IMG/VR virus record: IMGVR_UViG_3300046500_000071
Span: 1 to 37,501 of that record
Direction: 5' to 3' (one strand)
Source: a virus
Length of the DNA: 37,501 nucleotides
Shown: positions 5,925 through 25,535 of the stretch, one piece after another
How the letters are laid out: every line of letters starts with the position of its first letter
How positions within the stretch are numbered: the stretch's first letter is position 1
Position numbers and translations under genes: made by a program
Notes under the pieces: generated by a model
Database searches by the model: none
What the model was told of the DNA's origin: nothing
The model's input: only the letters and a program-made list of their open reading frames with translations

Positions 5925-7160
5925 TCAGCCCATCCAGGCGCCAGCACCATGCACGGTGCGGCGGATTACAGGTTTGCTCGGCTTCGGAGCCTTCCCAGCA
6001 CGTCGGGCGCCCTCGCAGGCATAGCGCAGCGCGTCGATCACGTGGTTGTCCTTGTCTTCGAGAATCGGCAGGATCGCCCCGGTAAGCGGGTCTTCCTTGT
6101 ATTTGTAGAGCGTGAGTTCGTCGATCAGGTGCTTGCAGCGCGGATGCACGACGATATCGAACGACTTCAGGAACTCGACGCCCTCTTCTAGGGACTTCGC
6201 GCCCTTGATAGCCGGGCGGATCTTCGGGAAGCCGTTCTTCTGCATGTGGCTGATCGTCTCGGGCCGCGCAGAGTCAGCCGTGATCGGCCACTTCTCGGCA
6301 TCCGGCACGCTCATGAACAGCTCGGGCAGGTTCACGATCTCGCATCCGACCATGTACGCCTCGTAATCGACGTACAGGCGGTTGCCTTCAATGTCGCAGC
6401 GGATCAGCACGGACGGATCGACCGAGAATCCCCAGTCGGCGCCCAGGCGGTGAATCGTGCCGGCCGGCCGCTCGAATTCTTCGACGCTCCAATTGCGGAA
6501 CACGCGCGCTTCACTGTTCTGCCGGTATTTGCCCAGCCACACATGCGCGTATTTGTCCGGATCGCGGCGCTTGTCGAACTCCATTTCCGCACGCAACTCA
6601 TCGGGCAACCATGGGTTGTCCATGTAATTCGCCTCGATCACGGCAGCATCTGGCGGGAGTTCTTCACCGCGCAGCAGCATGTCGATTGGATCGGTCGGAG
6701 AGTCCGGATTCCAGTCGAACCACAGTTGCGAACCGGGCTTGCGAATCGTTGGGCGCAGCAGCGTGAGGCTCTTTTCGCTGGCCTTCTGAGCCTCGGCGAA
6801 CCACGACCGATCAAAGCCCTCAAGCGACTTGATGGAGTCGGCCGTGTGGTTCTGCATGCCCTCGAAGATCGTCACGCCACCATGCCGCGTGAGGATGCGG
6901 CGGTCCTGAACATCGAAGTAATAGCCGGCGTTGTAGGTCTGGATCTTCGACTCAAGCAGCTTCTTCACCGAGAACTCAAGCGACTTGAGCGTTTCCCGGA
7001 TGCAGACGAAATCGAGCTTTTCGCTCACGCTTTCTTCAAGCCACAGCTCGGCGAAGAAGTTGGACTTGCCGGAACCTCGACCGCCGTGCGCCCCCTTGTA
7101 TCGCGCCGGCTTCAGAAGCGGCAGGAAAGCGCGCGGCGTCTCGATTACGAGGTCGCTCAT
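5925..7160 (-). CDS. terL: Terminase large subunit (PBSX/Terminase_3 type)
   Basis: 411 aa. The N-terminal ATPase has a Walker A, GGRGSGKS, at residues 26-33 and a Walker B-like SWFAEAQ at 119-125 (E123). The C-terminal RNase H-like nuclease shows the expected acidic residues: D242 in GADWG, D296 in TADSA and D376 in DNHVIDALRY. It packages DNA into the prohead through the portal and cuts the concatemer. The start overlaps the terS stop by 4 bases (ATGA). It is shorter than P22 gp2 (499 aa) and looks more like the PBSX branch, so packaging and virion modules may have different histories. Confidence 0.92.
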   Translation of the reverse strand: MSDLVIETPRAFLPLLKPARYKGAHGGRGSGKSNFFAELWLEESVSEKLDFVCIRETLKSLEFSVKKLLESKIQTYNAGYYFDVQDRRILTRHGGVTIFEGMQNHTADSIKSLEGFDRSWFAEAQKASEKSLTLLRPTIRKPGSQLWFDWNPDSPTDPIDMLLRGEELPPDAAVIEANYMDNPWLPDELRAEMEFDKRRDPDKYAHVWLGKYRQNSEARVFRNWSVEEFERPAGTIHRLGADWGFSVDPSVLIRCDIEGNRLYVDYEAYMVGCEIVNLPELFMSVPDAEKWPITADSARPETISHMQKNGFPKIRPAIKGAKSLEEGVEFLKSFDIVVHPRCKHLIDELTLYKYKEDPLTGAILPILEDKDNHVIDALRYACEGARRAGKAPKPSKPVIRRTVHGAGAWMG

Positions 7161-7552
7161 TGCAGCTTCGGTTCTGACTCACCCGGATCGCGCGGGTCGA
7201 TCACCTTGCGCGTCACGCTCTGGAACTGGACAGGACCGCCGTCAGGACCGGTGAGCGAGTGATCCACCTTATCCCGCCAGTCCTCTTTCCGGCGGTTCTT
7301 CAGCCAGAAGATCTGTGCGGTGACGTTGCCGCCGGTCGCGTTCTTGTAGAGCGCGCCGACGACCTTCGCGTCTGCCTTGTCCTTGCCGGTGCTCATCGCC
7401 TCGGCGAAGTCCTCGTGGGCGAGCTTCCAGTCTCCGACTGTCCGCAGGCCAACACCGAGGAAAGCAGCGACTTCCGCGTCCGTCGCCCCGAGCAGGCAAT
7501 AGTTCATCGCCAGTTCGGCGTACTCGGGCTTGTACTTCGACGGACGGGCCAT
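7157..7552 (-). CDS. terS: Terminase small subunit
   Basis: 131 aa, starting MARPSKYKPEYAELAMNYCL. Residues 20-45 form a helix-turn-helix (ATDAEVAAFLGVGLRTVGDWKL), followed by a helical oligomerisation region with KADAKVVGALYKNATGGNVT and IFWLKNRRKEDWRDK, a motif repeated in many small terminases of temperate phages. The C-terminus is proline- and acid-rich. It recognises the packaging start site and loads the large subunit, encoded next with a 4-base overlap. In P22 the pac site lies inside the corresponding gene; no pac site can be located here from sequence alone. Confidence 0.88.
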   Translation of the reverse strand: MARPSKYKPEYAELAMNYCLLGATDAEVAAFLGVGLRTVGDWKLAHEDFAEAMSTGKDKADAKVVGALYKNATGGNVTAQIFWLKNRRKEDWRDKVDHSLTGPDGGPVQFQSVTRKVIDPRDPGESEPKLQ

Positions 7553-7555
7553 GGC

Positions 7556-7948
7556 TTAGATCACCGCCTTGATGTGCACGTAGATCGCTTCGAGCTCGTC
7601 GACGGACACGCGCTCTGCATTGCGAAGCTTGGCGAGCGCGTTGGCGAACTTCGCTTCGAGCAGCATCAGGTGCGACTCGCGCGGGAGCTCAGCAGCGGCA
7701 TCGACCGTGGGCGTCGGTGAAGAGTCCACAGGCGCTGCAGAGTCGGCACCAGTATTCGATGGCTCCCCCGTTGCGGCCGTGCCAGCCTCCAAGACGGGCG
7801 CATCAACCACCGAAGCGGCGTTCACCAGCACGTTACCAGTGACGGTCGGAACGGGTTGCTCTGCGACAGCCTGCGTCATGACAGGCTCCGTGCTGCTCGG
7901 CGCTGCGTCGCTCATCTGTGCTGCTGCTTCTGCAATCGGATCGCTCAT
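7556..7948 (-). CDS. Hypothetical protein, first gene of the late operon
   Basis: 130 aa, starting MSDPIAEAAAQMSDAAPSST with GGAG 8 bases upstream. Residues 1-90 are low-complexity, rich in A, P, T, S and V and acidic, so probably disordered. The last 40 residues (ESHLMLLEAKFANALAKLRN, then ERVSVDELEAIYVHIKAVI) look like two or three amphipathic helices. It lies 3 bases before terS and is likely co-transcribed with it. I do not recognise it. A packaging accessory role is possible from position only. Confidence 0.65.
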   Translation of the reverse strand: MSDPIAEAAAQMSDAAPSSTEPVMTQAVAEQPVPTVTGNVLVNAASVVDAPVLEAGTAATGEPSNTGADSAAPVDSSPTPTVDAAAELPRESHLMLLEAKFANALAKLRNAERVSVDELEAIYVHIKAVI

Positions 7949-8297
7949 GATTCACTCCAATGGTTGAGGGTGCTATGGCCCGCGTCGTGCAGAGTTCCGG
8001 CGTGCCGGCGGAGACCCACGACTTCCAGAACGTCCGATAGCTGCCGCGGTTATCTCACTCACGGCTTGAGGAAGAAGGCGACCGTCTTTCCGATCTGTCA
8101 TTGCGATCCTGCCGATGCTCAGTTACATCGACGCTCGCTCTTACGCATGGCGATTGCCCGTACATGTAGTCACGCGGCTTCACGCGCGCCTTATAAGTGT
8201 CCGCACTCTGTCAGCTACACTCGTAGACACTCGCCATGCGTAAGAGGCCAGCCCGGTTGTGCTCCGCGGCGCCGACCGCCGCGTGACTGGCAGAAAC
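7949..8297 (-). promoter_or_regulatory. Non-coding late-promoter region
   Basis: About 350 bases with no convincing gene lie between the leftward early terminator and the first late gene. The late promoter should be here, by analogy with lambda pR' and P22 late transcription, because all genes from 7948 around the circle to 24510 run on the minus strand. I cannot point to a clean -35/-10 pair. The best AT-rich minus-strand hexamer is TATAAG near 8192, without a good -35. The region also holds the perfect inverted repeat at 8138-8246. Confidence 0.45.
8138..8246. repeat. Perfect 16-bp inverted repeat enclosing 77 nt
   Basis: CTCTTACGCATGGCGA at 8138-8153 and its exact reverse complement TCGCCATGCGTAAGAG at 8231-8246. 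The enclosed 77 nt contain smaller hairpins on the minus strand: CTAC-GAGT-GTAG, GTGTC with GACAC, and a CGCG/CGCG pair. The element could be a folded RNA of about 109 nt, or a DNA site bound by the packaging or late regulatory machinery. No T-run follows, so it is not a simple terminator. It does not fit a canonical tRNA. Confidence 0.8.
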
Positions 8298-8333
8298 GAA
8301 AAAGCCCCGCTCGGCGTGAACCAGCGGGGCTTT
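8298..8333 (-). terminator. Terminator of the leftward early operon
   Basis: An 11-bp stem, AAAGCCCCGCT (8301-8311) with AGCGGGGCTTT (8323-8333), and an 11-nt loop. On the minus strand it is followed by a run of five Ts. It lies 33 bases beyond the stop of the candidate late regulator at 8367 and separates early from late transcription. Confidence 0.85.
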
Positions 8334-8366: not shown

Positions 8367-8774
8367 TCAGGAAGTTACAACATCTTCACGCGGTTTACAA
8401 GCAGATTTTTCGAGCAATCCTGCAACTACCATCTGCGGACAGAGAATCGCCTTCGCACGCTCGTAGTCCTCGTCCTGTGTCTCGGCGTGCCGCGGGTTGA
8501 CCCAGACCGATGCGCCGGCGCCGAAATTACGCATCGCCGTGTTGATCGCAAGACGGCTGCGCATGTCGAGCTTGAGGATCATCGGCTCAATCACCTTGCC
8601 GACCGACGCGCGCAGGTTCATTTCGACTTCGGCGTCGAGGTCGTCGTAATCCATCCATTGACGACTGATGCGGAAGTCGCGGCAGGCCGGGTCAGCGCCC
8701 CCATGGCCGAGGTTCGGCGTATAGCCTGCCTGCCACTCGTACCAGTCCAACAGCAGTTCGTCGATTCGATCCAT
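8367..8774 (-). CDS. Candidate late-gene regulator (Q position), conserved phage protein
   Basis: 135 aa, starting MDRIDELLLDWYEWQAGYTP. The N-terminus is rich in W, Y and acidic residues. It continues with ACRDFRISRQWMDYDD and ends with NPRHAETQDEDYERAKAILC and KSACKPREDVVTS. I associate this pattern of LLLDWYEWQxGY and SRQW with small proteins near the end of early operons in beta-proteobacterial phages, but I cannot name a characterised member. The C..C spacing is not a clear zinc finger. Its place, last early gene before a strong terminator and the late region, is that of lambda Q. Late antiterminator or activator is therefore an inference from position. GGGGAT precedes the ATG. Confidence 0.6.
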   Translation of the reverse strand: MDRIDELLLDWYEWQAGYTPNLGHGGADPACRDFRISRQWMDYDDLDAEVEMNLRASVGKVIEPMILKLDMRSRLAINTAMRNFGAGASVWVNPRHAETQDEDYERAKAILCPQMVVAGLLEKSACKPREDVVTS

Positions 8775-21310: not shown

Positions 21311-21516
21311 GCGAAATCGAACTGTTGGAGCGGGCAATCCAACGATATGCCGAGCGTCACCCCAGGCCGCCGCACGTCAACCAGAAGCAGGCAGCCGACA
21401 TGCTGGGGGTTAGCGCGCGCACGATCCACAACATGATCAAGGCTGGCACGCTGAAGCTCAATCGCTGCGGGCTGATCCCGATCGAGCAGATCGACGCCGC
21501 GCTGCGGCCTCACTAG
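21307..21516 (+). CDS. Excisionase-like HTH protein
   Basis: 69 aa, starting MSEIELLERAIQRYAERHPR. The C-terminal 45 residues are a MerR/AlpA-like helix-turn-helix: NQKQAADMLGVSARTIHNMI, KAGTLKLNRCGLIPIEQIDA. Such small proteins direct excision or regulate integrase. It ends exactly at the integrase stop; the two convergent genes share the palindrome CTAG (21513-21516). The place beside int on the lytic transcript supports excisionase, though a transcription regulator of the same fold is possible. Confidence 0.7.
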   Translation: MSEIELLERAIQRYAERHPRPPHVNQKQAADMLGVSARTIHNMIKAGTLKLNRCGLIPIEQIDAALRPH

Positions 21517-22511
21517 ATGCGCGCCGCAATGTCCTCAGCCGACTCTCTGTAATAAACCGAACTGAGCATGCGCAGATCGGTGTGACCGCTGATTTTCGAA
21601 AGCGTCAGCACGTCCACCTTTCGCGCAAGCCGAGTCAAAGCTTCGGCCCGGCTATCGTGAAAATGCAGGCCATCAATCTTCAGTCTCAGCTTTGCCCGCC
21701 GGAACAGCGTCTCCAGAGTCCCGGAATCGACCGTAAAGAATCGGTCCCGATCTGAAACAGGCGCCAGCAGCCGTACCGCATGGCGTGTCATCGGGATCAG
21801 CCGCGGTCGACCGGTCACATGCTGCATCTTGTGCCTGACCGTCGCAACGCGCTTTTTCAGGTCGCAGTTGTCCTTTCCTAGCTGCAGCAACTCGCCAGCA
21901 CGCATGGCCGTTCTGAGAGCCAACAGAAACGCCAGGGCAACCTCCTGGCTCTTCGTCACAGGTGCATGCCCCGTCCGATACCCGAGCGCCCTGCAGATGG
22001 GCCTGACCTCTTTCCAAGGATCGACGCGGCGGTCTCGCGGCGCCCCTTCCTGCGGAATCTTGAAGCCAGCGAACGGGTTATGCGTCAGCCAGTGCCATTC
22101 ATCGCGCGCGGTGTAGAACACATTGCGGATCAGGTTGATGTCGCGGACCACTGAGCCCGGTTTTACCTTCTTTAGCCTGGCATCGCGCCACTCGGCCAGT
22201 TGAGGCGTCTTGAATTCCGCCAACTTGAGGGAGGCCAGATGCGGGAAGTCGCGTTCGAATGCCTGCAGTCTCAAAGCCTCTTTCTGTTCGCCCTGTTTGG
22301 TGCTCGACACATCTCGTATGTATCGCTTGAAAGCGTCGGACACAGTATGCAGTTCCCCGGGCTCCATATCCTTCTGAGCGCGTATCTCCGACTCGCGCGC
22401 CGCAGCCCAAGCCTTGGCCTCTCGTTGGGTGCGGAACGTCCCCGAATCGCGTACGGAACCGATCTTGATCTGAGCTCGATATCCGGCTTTGCATGGGGTG
22501 ATTGATGCCAC
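21513..22511 (-). CDS. int: Tyrosine-recombinase integrase
   Basis: 332 aa from the GTG at 22511 (VASITPCKAGYRAQIKIGSV), with GGCGAGG upstream; an ATG at 22598 would add 29 residues of poor quality. An N-terminal arm-binding segment (1-45) is followed by a core-binding SAM-like domain. The catalytic residues are R204 (ALRTAMRAGELL), H285 and R288 (HFHDSRAE), H310 (SGHTDLRML) and Y320 or Y321 (SVYYRES). It integrates the phage at a tRNA gene. The attP core lies about 145 bases upstream of this start, and after integration int reads in the same direction as the restored tRNA. Confidence 0.92.
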   Translation of the reverse strand: MASITPCKAGYRAQIKIGSVRDSGTFRTQREAKAWAAARESEIRAQKDMEPGELHTVSDAFKRYIRDVSSTKQGEQKEALRLQAFERDFPHLASLKLAEFKTPQLAEWRDARLKKVKPGSVVRDINLIRNVFYTARDEWHWLTHNPFAGFKIPQEGAPRDRRVDPWKEVRPICRALGYRTGHAPVTKSQEVALAFLLALRTAMRAGELLQLGKDNCDLKKRVATVRHKMQHVTGRPRLIPMTRHAVRLLAPVSDRDRFFTVDSGTLETLFRRAKLRLKIDGLHFHDSRAEALTRLARKVDVLTLSKISGHTDLRMLSSVYYRESAEDIAARI

Positions 22512-22654
22512 TGTGGGGCCTCGCCTGGGGCTGCGTTGGGGCCGCCAGTGTATAAAGATCCATTCAAATAGGCAAACAGCGGAAATACACCTGCGCACAA
22601 GACCCTTGATTTCCTTGATTTTCTGTATAAAGTGGAATGGACAGGAAACGGTCG

Positions 22655-23053: not shown

Positions 23054-24391
23054 ATGAAGCGATTGTCCCCCGCCGCACTGACCTTTTTCACGATCATCAT
23101 CCTCGGCAGCATCTTTTCCGCCCTGATCCCGCCGATGCAGTCGCCGGATGAAAACGACCACATCAAGCGCGCATACCTGCTGTCGGTCCTGTCGCCTACC
23201 GTCACCGAGCCGGGAAAATCCACTGGCGGCTATTTTGATGACGCGTTACAGCAGTATCAGGTACTGAATTTCCAGGCCCTGTCGATCAAGCCTAAGGCGC
23301 GCTTCGATGCCCAGATTGCCCATGCCGGTGCAGCAATTCGATGGAGTGGCAAGGAAAGCTACGTGGATATGGCTGGCGCGGCGCCCTATTTCCCACTCGG
23401 CTATCTCCCGCAGGCTATCGGGCTCAGGATCGGCGAGTCGATGAAACTCGGTGTCGGGGCATCTTACCGGCTGGCGCGCGCCGCTACACTGGTTACCGTC
23501 GCTGCGATCATCGCCTATGCGTTCACGATATTCCCTCCGAACGCCATGGTGATCTGCCTGCTCGCGCTGCCGATGACGATGTTCCAGTTATCGAGCGCCT
23601 CAGCGGACGGCATGTCGTTCGCATGGACCGTGCTGGCTGCGAGCCTGTTCCGCCGCGGCCTGGAGCGAGAGCAGCCGTTCCCGCTTCTGTGGTCCGTGCT
23701 GCTGATCATCGCACCGTTCATGATTGCCACGAGCCGGCCGCAACTTATCGTGGTCCTGATTCTGGCGCCAGTGGTTTTCTTCATCCGCAAAGACCGCCGC
23801 GCGCTGGTGGGATCGGTCATCGCAGCGTTGCTCGCTGTGGGGTGGGTGATGTATGGCGCATCGCACACCGTTGATCTGCGCTGGACTCGCTCGATTACGA
23901 CCGGTCAGGCCGTCTATTTTTATCTGCACCATCCGGTCGAACTGGCTAAAGTCCTTTGGCGAACGCTATCGAACCCGGCTATTCTAAAGGCTTACTGGTG
24001 TCAGTTCGTCGGCGTGCTCGGCTGGCTGGATCGTCCAATGCAGCCGGCAACCTATGTTATCGCTGCGGCTGGCCTGATCGCTGCGTTGGCGCTGTCCCTA
24101 TCCCGGCGGGTAGGAGCAGTAGCGCGCTCGGTGCCGCTTCTCGTTGCCGCGTCGGCAGTCGGGCTAACGCTCGTCGCGTTGCTCGTGACGTGGACGGATT
24201 TGCACGCGCAGTTTGTGATTGGCGTTCAGGGGCGGTATTTCACCGCGCCGGCGATCCTCGCGGCCTATGCCCTGAGCAGCGCAACGGTTAGCGAACGACG
24301 CTCAATCGCTGCCGCAGTTTTATGCGGAGCATTCGTCGTGTTCTCGGCATCGATGACCGTATCGACGCTGATCTGGAAATACTACCTGTGA
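23054..24391 (+). CDS. DUF2142-type multi-pass membrane protein (probable lysogenic conversion)
   Basis: 445 aa, starting MKRLSPAALTFFTIIILGSI, then FSALIPPMQSPDENDHIKRA: an N-terminal membrane helix followed by the PPxxSPDExxHxxRA motif of DUF2142, related in layout to GT-C glycosyltransferases. About ten further hydrophobic segments follow (AATLVTVAAIIAYAFTIFPP, FMIATSRPQLIVVLILAPVV, and others to the C-terminus). DUF2142 proteins are often found in polysaccharide gene clusters. It is on the opposite strand to its late-operon neighbours and beside attP, a usual place for O-antigen or surface-modifying genes that alter the lysogen. The partner flippase and bactoprenol transferase of gtr clusters are absent. 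Confidence 0.8.
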   Translation: MKRLSPAALTFFTIIILGSIFSALIPPMQSPDENDHIKRAYLLSVLSPTVTEPGKSTGGYFDDALQQYQVLNFQALSIKPKARFDAQIAHAGAAIRWSGKESYVDMAGAAPYFPLGYLPQAIGLRIGESMKLGVGASYRLARAATLVTVAAIIAYAFTIFPPNAMVICLLALPMTMFQLSSASADGMSFAWTVLAASLFRRGLEREQPFPLLWSVLLIIAPFMIATSRPQLIVVLILAPVVFFIRKDRRALVGSVIAALLAVGWVMYGASHTVDLRWTRSITTGQAVYFYLHHPVELAKVLWRTLSNPAILKAYWCQFVGVLGWLDRPMQPATYVIAAAGLIAALALSLSRRVGAVARSVPLLVAASAVGLTLVALLVTWTDLHAQFVIGVQGRYFTAPAILAAYALSSATVSERRSIAAAVLCGAFVVFSASMTVSTLIWKYYL

Positions 24392-24509: not shown

Positions 24510-25535
24510 CTATCGGCGCCGCGCCGAAATGTCGCCGACGACCGCCATGGTACTGGTGCCGAAAACGGCGACCGTCACAAGATAGACAGTGGTCGGAGAT
24601 GACACGTTTATTCTGACAGGCGCGATGCCGGTCGCTACGGTCGTGGTCGTTGATCCGCCCGGGAAAGATCCCAGAAATCCTTTCGTGTAATCGTTGGTCG
24701 CGCTAGTGGTGCTGATGCTTCCGCCGATAAAACTAACCGTTGTCGTACCGCCAAGAATATAGGCGACATGGGCGGAGACATCCCAGTCGCCAGCAGTAAG
24801 AGAGATACTTGCGATATTGATCGTCGTTCCGCTGGTTAGTGAAATTGGCGTAGAAACGTTGGATGCACATCCAGTCGGTGATCCACCATTGGTGACCTGT
24901 GCGCAGATATATTCGCCGACACTCCCCGCTGTGACGTTCGCACCTGTTTTGTTCCCCACCACACCAGCCGGATATGACGGCGTGATGGCTCCGGTAACGG
25001 TGAGCCCGGTAGACGTGAACTGGCTCACGATCGCGCCATTGTTGAGCACATTAACGGTGTTGCCATGCGTCGAGTCAAACAGGGAAATTGCGCCGCCGTT
25101 CGACGTTCCGGTTACCGTCCCGATCGTATAACCCGCGCCCCCTCCTAGTATGCTTCCTGTGGTCGTCAGCGTTGTTGCTGTGACAGGGCCTGTAAAGGTG
25201 GCACCCGTCAGCGACGCGGAGTTCGCGTAACACGTCCATCCGGTGACTGGCGTGTACTGGAGCGCGCTCGTGCTGGTGTTGCATGTTGGCATCGCAACGG
25301 CAGTCGGCGAAGCGCTTGATGCGGTGATGTTCGCAACCACCGTATTCGCAGCTTGGGCGGCCAGCGCTGTAGCCGTTACATTGCCCCACGCCGGCGCGCT
25401 GGACGCCCCGGTAGAAACGATGGCCTGACCGGCTGTCGAGCCGGCTGGATTGAGAAGTTGCACAGGGTTCAGCGTTGCGCCGAAAGAGGTAGCCGCGGCG
25501 CACGTCAGTGCGATGAGGGTTAAAAGTCGCTTCAT
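24510..25535 (-). CDS. Fibre-like protein with an apparent signal peptide
   Basis: 341 aa. The first 20 residues, MKRLLTLIALTCAAATSFGA, form a typical Sec signal peptide with a likely cut after FGA. Then TLNPVQLLNPAGSTAGQAIV and a long region rich in T, A, S, G and V with repeated GATFTGPVTATTLTTTGSIL-type units resemble phage tail-fibre shafts. The last 120 residues (SLTAGDWDVSAHVAYILGGT ... VAVFGTSTMAVVGDISARRR) look like the beta-sandwich head found at the end of many tail fibres. It is last in the late operon after the lysis genes. A fibre part with an export signal is unusual: it may be secreted to the periplasm or medium. Confidence 0.7.
   Translation of the reverse strand: MKRLLTLIALTCAAATSFGATLNPVQLLNPAGSTAGQAIVSTGASSAPAWGNVTATALAAQAANTVVANITASSASPTAVAMPTCNTSTSALQYTPVTGWTCYANSASLTGATFTGPVTATTLTTTGSILGGGAGYTIGTVTGTSNGGAISLFDSTHGNTVNVLNNGAIVSQFTSTGLTVTGAITPSYPAGVVGNKTGANVTAGSVGEYICAQVTNGGSPTGCASNVSTPISLTSGTTINIASISLTAGDWDVSAHVAYILGGTTTVSFIGGSISTTSATNDYTKGFLGSFPGGSTTTTVATGIAPVRINVSSPTTVYLVTVAVFGTSTMAVVGDISARRR

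Follow-up and report, generated by a model that had tools for sequence, protein, structure and literature searches.

A structured RNA element with a conserved closing stem and an exchangeable interior in the late leader of a virus and of unrelated phages

The window analysed here, a 37,501-nt stretch of the IMG/VR virus record IMGVR_UViG_3300046500_000071, contains a long inverted repeat in a gene-free region next to its terminase genes. An earlier note, made from the sequence alone, had taken this repeat for a possible phage small RNA or late-leader regulatory structure, and had named the region as a likely place for a late promoter or a packaging signal. The locus raises the question of whether the repeat is an RNA structure or a DNA site, and what role such an element would have ahead of the late genes.

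Inverted repeat and late control region

The arms at positions 8138–8153 and 8231–8246 form a perfect 16-bp inverted repeat with 77 nt between them, confirming the earlier description, and constitute the sole 16-mer inverted pair in the 37.5-kb window at any distance; within 300 nt, no other inverted pair of ≥14 nt occurs in the window. Two of the three further positions beyond the arms also match, extending the repeat to 19 nt (95%). The repeat is intergenic, flanked by two minus-strand ORFs (7556–7948 and 8367–8774, the latter of 135 aa). The minus-strand fold of the region (−61.6 kcal/mol, z = −5.1, equalled by 0 of 200 shuffles) is stronger than that of the plus strand (z = −3.3). No tRNA or tmRNA was detected in the window by ARAGORN or Rfam, none of the Rfam 15 families (covariance models, GOLLD and ROOL included) reached its gathering score in the window, and BLAST of the region against phage and plasmid records returned short terminator matches only.

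The genes before the region encode a Holliday-junction resolvase, a DnaB-like helicase, and a primosomal protein, while the minus-strand genes past it encode the small (7157–7552) and large (5925–7160) terminase subunits, both identified with PHROGs, followed by portal, scaffold, and P22-type major head proteins. The terminase subunit genes (5925–7552) are the early genes of the late operon. Along the late transcript the order is promoter, terminator, a hairpin module (H), the repeat (hereafter element E), leader, and terminase genes, all on the minus strand. The putative late promoter, TTGTAA-17-TAACTT (8372–8400), overlaps the end of the 135-aa gene, and its pattern (TTG[TC]AA-N16-18-TANNNT) is present in 21 of 36 leader-bearing relatives compared to 0.7% of shuffled regions. 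A GC-rich terminator hairpin followed by a T run (8333–8299) lies ~30 nt past the expected transcript start, and a similar hairpin occurs in relatives. Module H (8247–8291), directly upstream of E, is paired in 100% of cells among 9 distinct relatives, and both partners have changed at 5 of its 13 pairs. Past E, a type-A hairpin (GACAGATCGGAAAGACGGTCGCC, 8077–8099) is followed by the conserved leader (7949–8076), in which 94.5% of cells are paired among 20 relatives and 13 of 22 pairs are changed on both sides. The leader possibly includes an H-type pseudoknot (CGCA/UGCG and GCCG/CGGC) in addition to a long covarying stem, with the second stem of the pseudoknot supported at one pair and containing unpaired cells at two others.

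The suggested location in a late leader was thus borne out by the order of promoter, terminator, and leader among relatives, whereas a late promoter or packaging signal at the repeat itself was not supported, as promoter and terminator both lie upstream of it. Lambdoid late control has the same order (late regulator, pR', terminator, leader, late genes), and the window appears to be organized in this manner, with a candidate regulator in the position of Q. This candidate, the 135-aa protein (8367–8774), belongs to a family that is predicted to be mostly helical and is encoded immediately ahead of the RNA modules in several phages, with homologues preceding E, or the module B described below, elsewhere (for example in loci L074, L111, and L301). 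The protein has no family match in databases, and its AlphaFold model (mean pLDDT, 78.5) gave weak fold matches, none of them significant, so that ‘Q-like’ describes its position; it is a candidate new late regulator.

Element E as an RNA family

Exact E arms were searched in IMG/VR and bacterial genomes, and elements with like interiors were merged into 58 clusters, of which 51 were used for statistics. These 51 elements, from other phage contigs, have the consensus arms YACGCAUGGCGAUUG ... CAGUCGCCAGYCGUR around an interior of 28–82 nt that is mostly unrelated between clusters. As the search pattern fixed the inner 5' arm, conservation there arises by construction; the pattern placed no constraint on the six pairs beyond this arm or on much of the 3' arm. 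In the outer stem 96.8% of cells are paired, 13 of 18 pairs are changed on both sides, and the covariation score (0.324) exceeds that of shuffles (0.127 ± 0.010, 0 of 500 reaching it) and far exceeds slid controls too. Variants include U-A (n = 30) and A-U (n = 21) at one pair and C-G, U-A, or U-G at others. Because these outer pairs, free in the search, covary strongly, the closing arms can be assigned to an RNA stem. Compensatory changes in relatives, proposed earlier as a check, were therefore found, and the view of the repeat as an RNA structure read from the minus strand is supported. Within the fixed part, too, individual members carry compensated changes (in L100, GGCGAUU/AGUCGCC becomes GUUGAUU/AGUCAAC). 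A U.G wobble and a 2×2 internal loop (C.Y/A.G) are also conserved in E, which indicates an RNA rather than a DNA palindrome.

The window copy of E (8138–8246, minus strand; stem arms 8246–8231 and 8153–8138) has a perfect 16-bp stem around an interior of 71–77 nt. The 5' arm ACGCAUGGCGAUUG with a complementary 3' arm is matched in the window at 14 of 14 positions on the plus strand and 13 of 14 on the minus strand. A covariance model of the arms (R1, interiors trimmed to 4 + 4 nt) finds most elements and not the window copy. In a control with filters off the same model also misses a true element, and the miss looks like a length limit. Because the long loop is beyond the reach of a search with filters off, the window arms were scored directly, giving a pair-weight score of 37.5 bits on the late (minus) strand and 33.4 on the other, against a best of 4.3 among 20 length-matched random sequences. 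The score lies below the range of the training members (52.8–73.2), which marks the window copy as divergent within the family; this copy lacks the C.Y/A.G internal loop and has Watson-Crick C-G and A-U pairs instead. The late orientation of E is supported by the type-A hairpin on the same strand, and a like hairpin occurs just upstream of E in 28 of 51 elements (2.3 expected).

A small ORF starting from the conserved AUG in GCAUGGCGAUUG was considered and rejected, with frames open in 26, 24, and 16 of the 51 elements and a coding signal absent. Among named phages, E had a single doubtful match.

Genomic distribution and cassette exchange

E and a terminase could be located on the same coordinates in 50 records. 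In an unbiased subset (n = 21), which leaves out records found through the terminase and two weak terminase matches, E lies upstream of the terminase, on the same strand and within 4.5 kb, in 14 records (2.2 expected), and away from it in the other seven. Replication and NinG-type genes lie upstream of E, and terminases of several unrelated families downstream. Some E elements adjoin phage tRNA genes, and many are followed downstream by module B.

To compare the intergenic region, 80 loci encoding a related large terminase were retrieved. In the aligned regions, positions 7949–8076 are conserved and 8247–8332 largely conserved, while the 170 nt between them (8077–8246) are missing or replaced. 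Locus L038 has an identical 128-nt leader, a nearly identical module H, and two bases (AA) in place of the 170 nt; an empty site in a phage with an identical leader identifies E as an exchangeable cassette. The same locus, along with L036, L039, and L040, carries nearby a stem of the same kind with a different interior. As the close relatives L041, L009, and L058 lack E, the element is not essential. At the leader hot spot of L042 (4600–4845) a small ORF (MATMSTKKRDKLPAKAF...) stands instead of the RNA modules, and small ORFs likewise take their place in L032, L035, L025, and L031.

The alternative raised earlier, that the arms are a remnant of an inserted element, holds insofar as the 170 nt behave as a cassette, occurring in some loci and missing from others, but the interiors are unshared, no target duplication was found, and the conserved non-palindromic internal loop speaks against a transposon. 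More generally, an element acting at the DNA level (an integron attC-like site, a MITE, a REP element, or a cos/pac site) would account for presence or absence at one site with exchangeable contents. This explanation, already disfavoured, is very improbable given that the attC core boxes (R' GTTRRRY and R'' RYYYAAC) occur in 0 of 51 members, that the empty site shows no target duplication, that the interiors are unrelated, unlike those of a MITE, and that an asymmetric wobble and mismatches are conserved.

T-arm-like tRNA hairpins occur in three E interiors (0.06 expected) and four downstream stretches (0.27 expected). Together with the adjoining tRNA genes and the perfect 16-bp duplex in the window, these fit a reading in which E is solely a processing signal, a site for cleavage of the RNase III or RNase P type or an insulating hairpin, with an interior of neutral filler. 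We consider this improbable, as a cleavage stem would need neither the conserved GCAUGGCGAUUG nor a conserved internal loop across unrelated phages, nor the exact replacement of interiors. E interiors with a T-arm-like hairpin (for example GTGGGTTCGAATCCCAC) near the conserved stem lie at L089:402–493, L098:3004–3088, and L127:7755–7850.

Module B

Module B consists of an 8-bp stem enclosing a constant hairpin, a hypervariable arm, and a second constant hairpin that abuts the stem. The search pattern fixed the two constant hairpins (GCGC-AGGCUGAU-GCGC and GCCGG-AGAUCAGCR-CCGGC) and left stem and arm free; the stem covaries at 8 of 8 pairs. The loops of the two constant hairpins show complementarity over 6 nt, of which 97 of 98 distinct modules have 5 nt or more, and their pairing would form a tRNA-like elbow. 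The constant loops hardly vary, and covariation is consequently unable to confirm the elbow; one compensated loop change occurs, in L103. In L115 and L133 the flanks of B are 99% identical over 120 nt and the arms unrelated, indicating that the arm is swapped as a unit.

B is much commoner than E and very widespread among phages and prophages of Enterobacterales and Pseudomonas. Of 5,426 complete E. coli genomes, 1,254 were matched by a B query, as were 271 phage records, the weakest of these matches probably being due to chance. In HK620 (AF335538, 16095–16184) it lies between the annotated late promoter pR'/qut and the terminator tQ, and in HK633, HK629, PAJU2, and phiEt88 between Q and the lysis genes. 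A match in P1 adjoins tRNA-Asn and tRNA-Thr, and further copies occur at L125:3536–3626 and L111:3080–3160. Its presence in the classical lambdoid phages HK620 and HK629 makes B testable at once in standard laboratory systems.

Strand sharing and possible action in cis

In 34 of 51 elements (8.8 expected), the strand on the 3' side of the outer E stem finds another exact complement, at least 6 nt long, within the next 150 nt, commonly the closing strand of B. The E stem and this alternative stem are mutually exclusive within one molecule, and the leader could switch between two folds in many relatives. No second partner of at least 6 nt was found, reading by eye, for the window copy.

The chief alternative to an action in trans is a role in cis, affecting antitermination or the fate of the mRNA. 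E, with H, the leader stem, and elsewhere B, would then act on the polymerase or on its own mRNA, whether by put-like processive antitermination, as a co-transcriptional switch, or as a 5' stabilizer of the late mRNA. The fixed position of E just past the leader terminator is consistent with such a role, as are the 34 strand-sharing elements and the adjoining leader, itself structured in every relative examined. However, a cis-acting RNA should conserve its interior, yet the interiors bear no relation to one another and entire arms are exchanged, the close relatives without E manage without it, and lambdoid phages carrying B already possess Q and qut. On this evidence we regard a cis role as rather unlikely.

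Proposed role and relation to known RNAs

Constraint at the RNA level, cassette exchange, and the leader position of E are established by the sequence comparisons. With its closing stem kept and its inside differing between viruses, E looks like an exchangeable RNA device. We think it somewhat probable that E, a family of structured late-leader RNAs with a constant stem and a swappable hypervariable interior, is stable and that its variable arm confers specificity. E would be produced only upon read-through of the leader terminator by late transcription, would fold during its transcription, and would end as a stable RNA domain, like the tRNA genes at the same spot elsewhere. A host or phage factor may recognize or protect the conserved stem, which would serve as a scaffold; specificity may lie in the variable arm, as in decoys or sRNA-like molecules subject to diversifying selection. 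Wholesale replacement of the interior and the presence of tRNA genes at this place in other phages lead us to favour a stable late-leader RNA that would act in trans.

Structured phage leaders include the put RNAs of HK022 and the 6S leader RNA of lambda, which E resembles in kind, but its interiors are hypervariable. The P4 CI and P1 C4 immunity RNAs are tRNA-like phage RNAs with specificity in their variable parts; unlike these, E showed no antisense target of its interior on the same contig beyond chance (9.23 versus 9.12 nt). The P22-like phage L carries tRNA genes in its late-operon leader, just downstream of the late start (PMC8022706), the same place as E, and the layout of B, with its pair of complementary loops, resembles that of a tRNA. 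The conserved loops of E and B nonetheless differ from those of tRNA, and in the loci scanned neither ARAGORN nor Rfam called either module as a tRNA. By context, the closest known kind are GOLLD and ROOL, large structured phage and prophage RNAs that are often near tRNA islands and whose function is poorly understood (PMC12286853). GOLLD and ROOL each have one long conserved fold, whereas E and B are short modules with interchangeable arms; neither matches Rfam 15, in which no family covers B, and the signature sequences of both were not found in the literature searched.

More tentatively, it is possible that E and B together constitute an undescribed class of late-leader RNAs, in which constant scaffolds (the signature stem and a tRNA-like fold with kissing loops) would hold a swappable arm in a strand-switching chain, forming a diversifying infection device with a decoy, anti-defence, or targeting role. 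Structured phage RNAs without a known function are few and intensively studied (GOLLD, ROOL), and here two modules fall outside Rfam 15. A constant frame around a swapped arm in unrelated phages is suggestive of an arms race or of a switch in specificity.

Elsewhere in the window, a predicted DUF2142 membrane protein is encoded on the plus strand (23054–24391), beside an integrase (21513–22598) and a possible tail-fibre gene (24510–25535), making the DUF2142 gene a candidate lysogenic-conversion gene.
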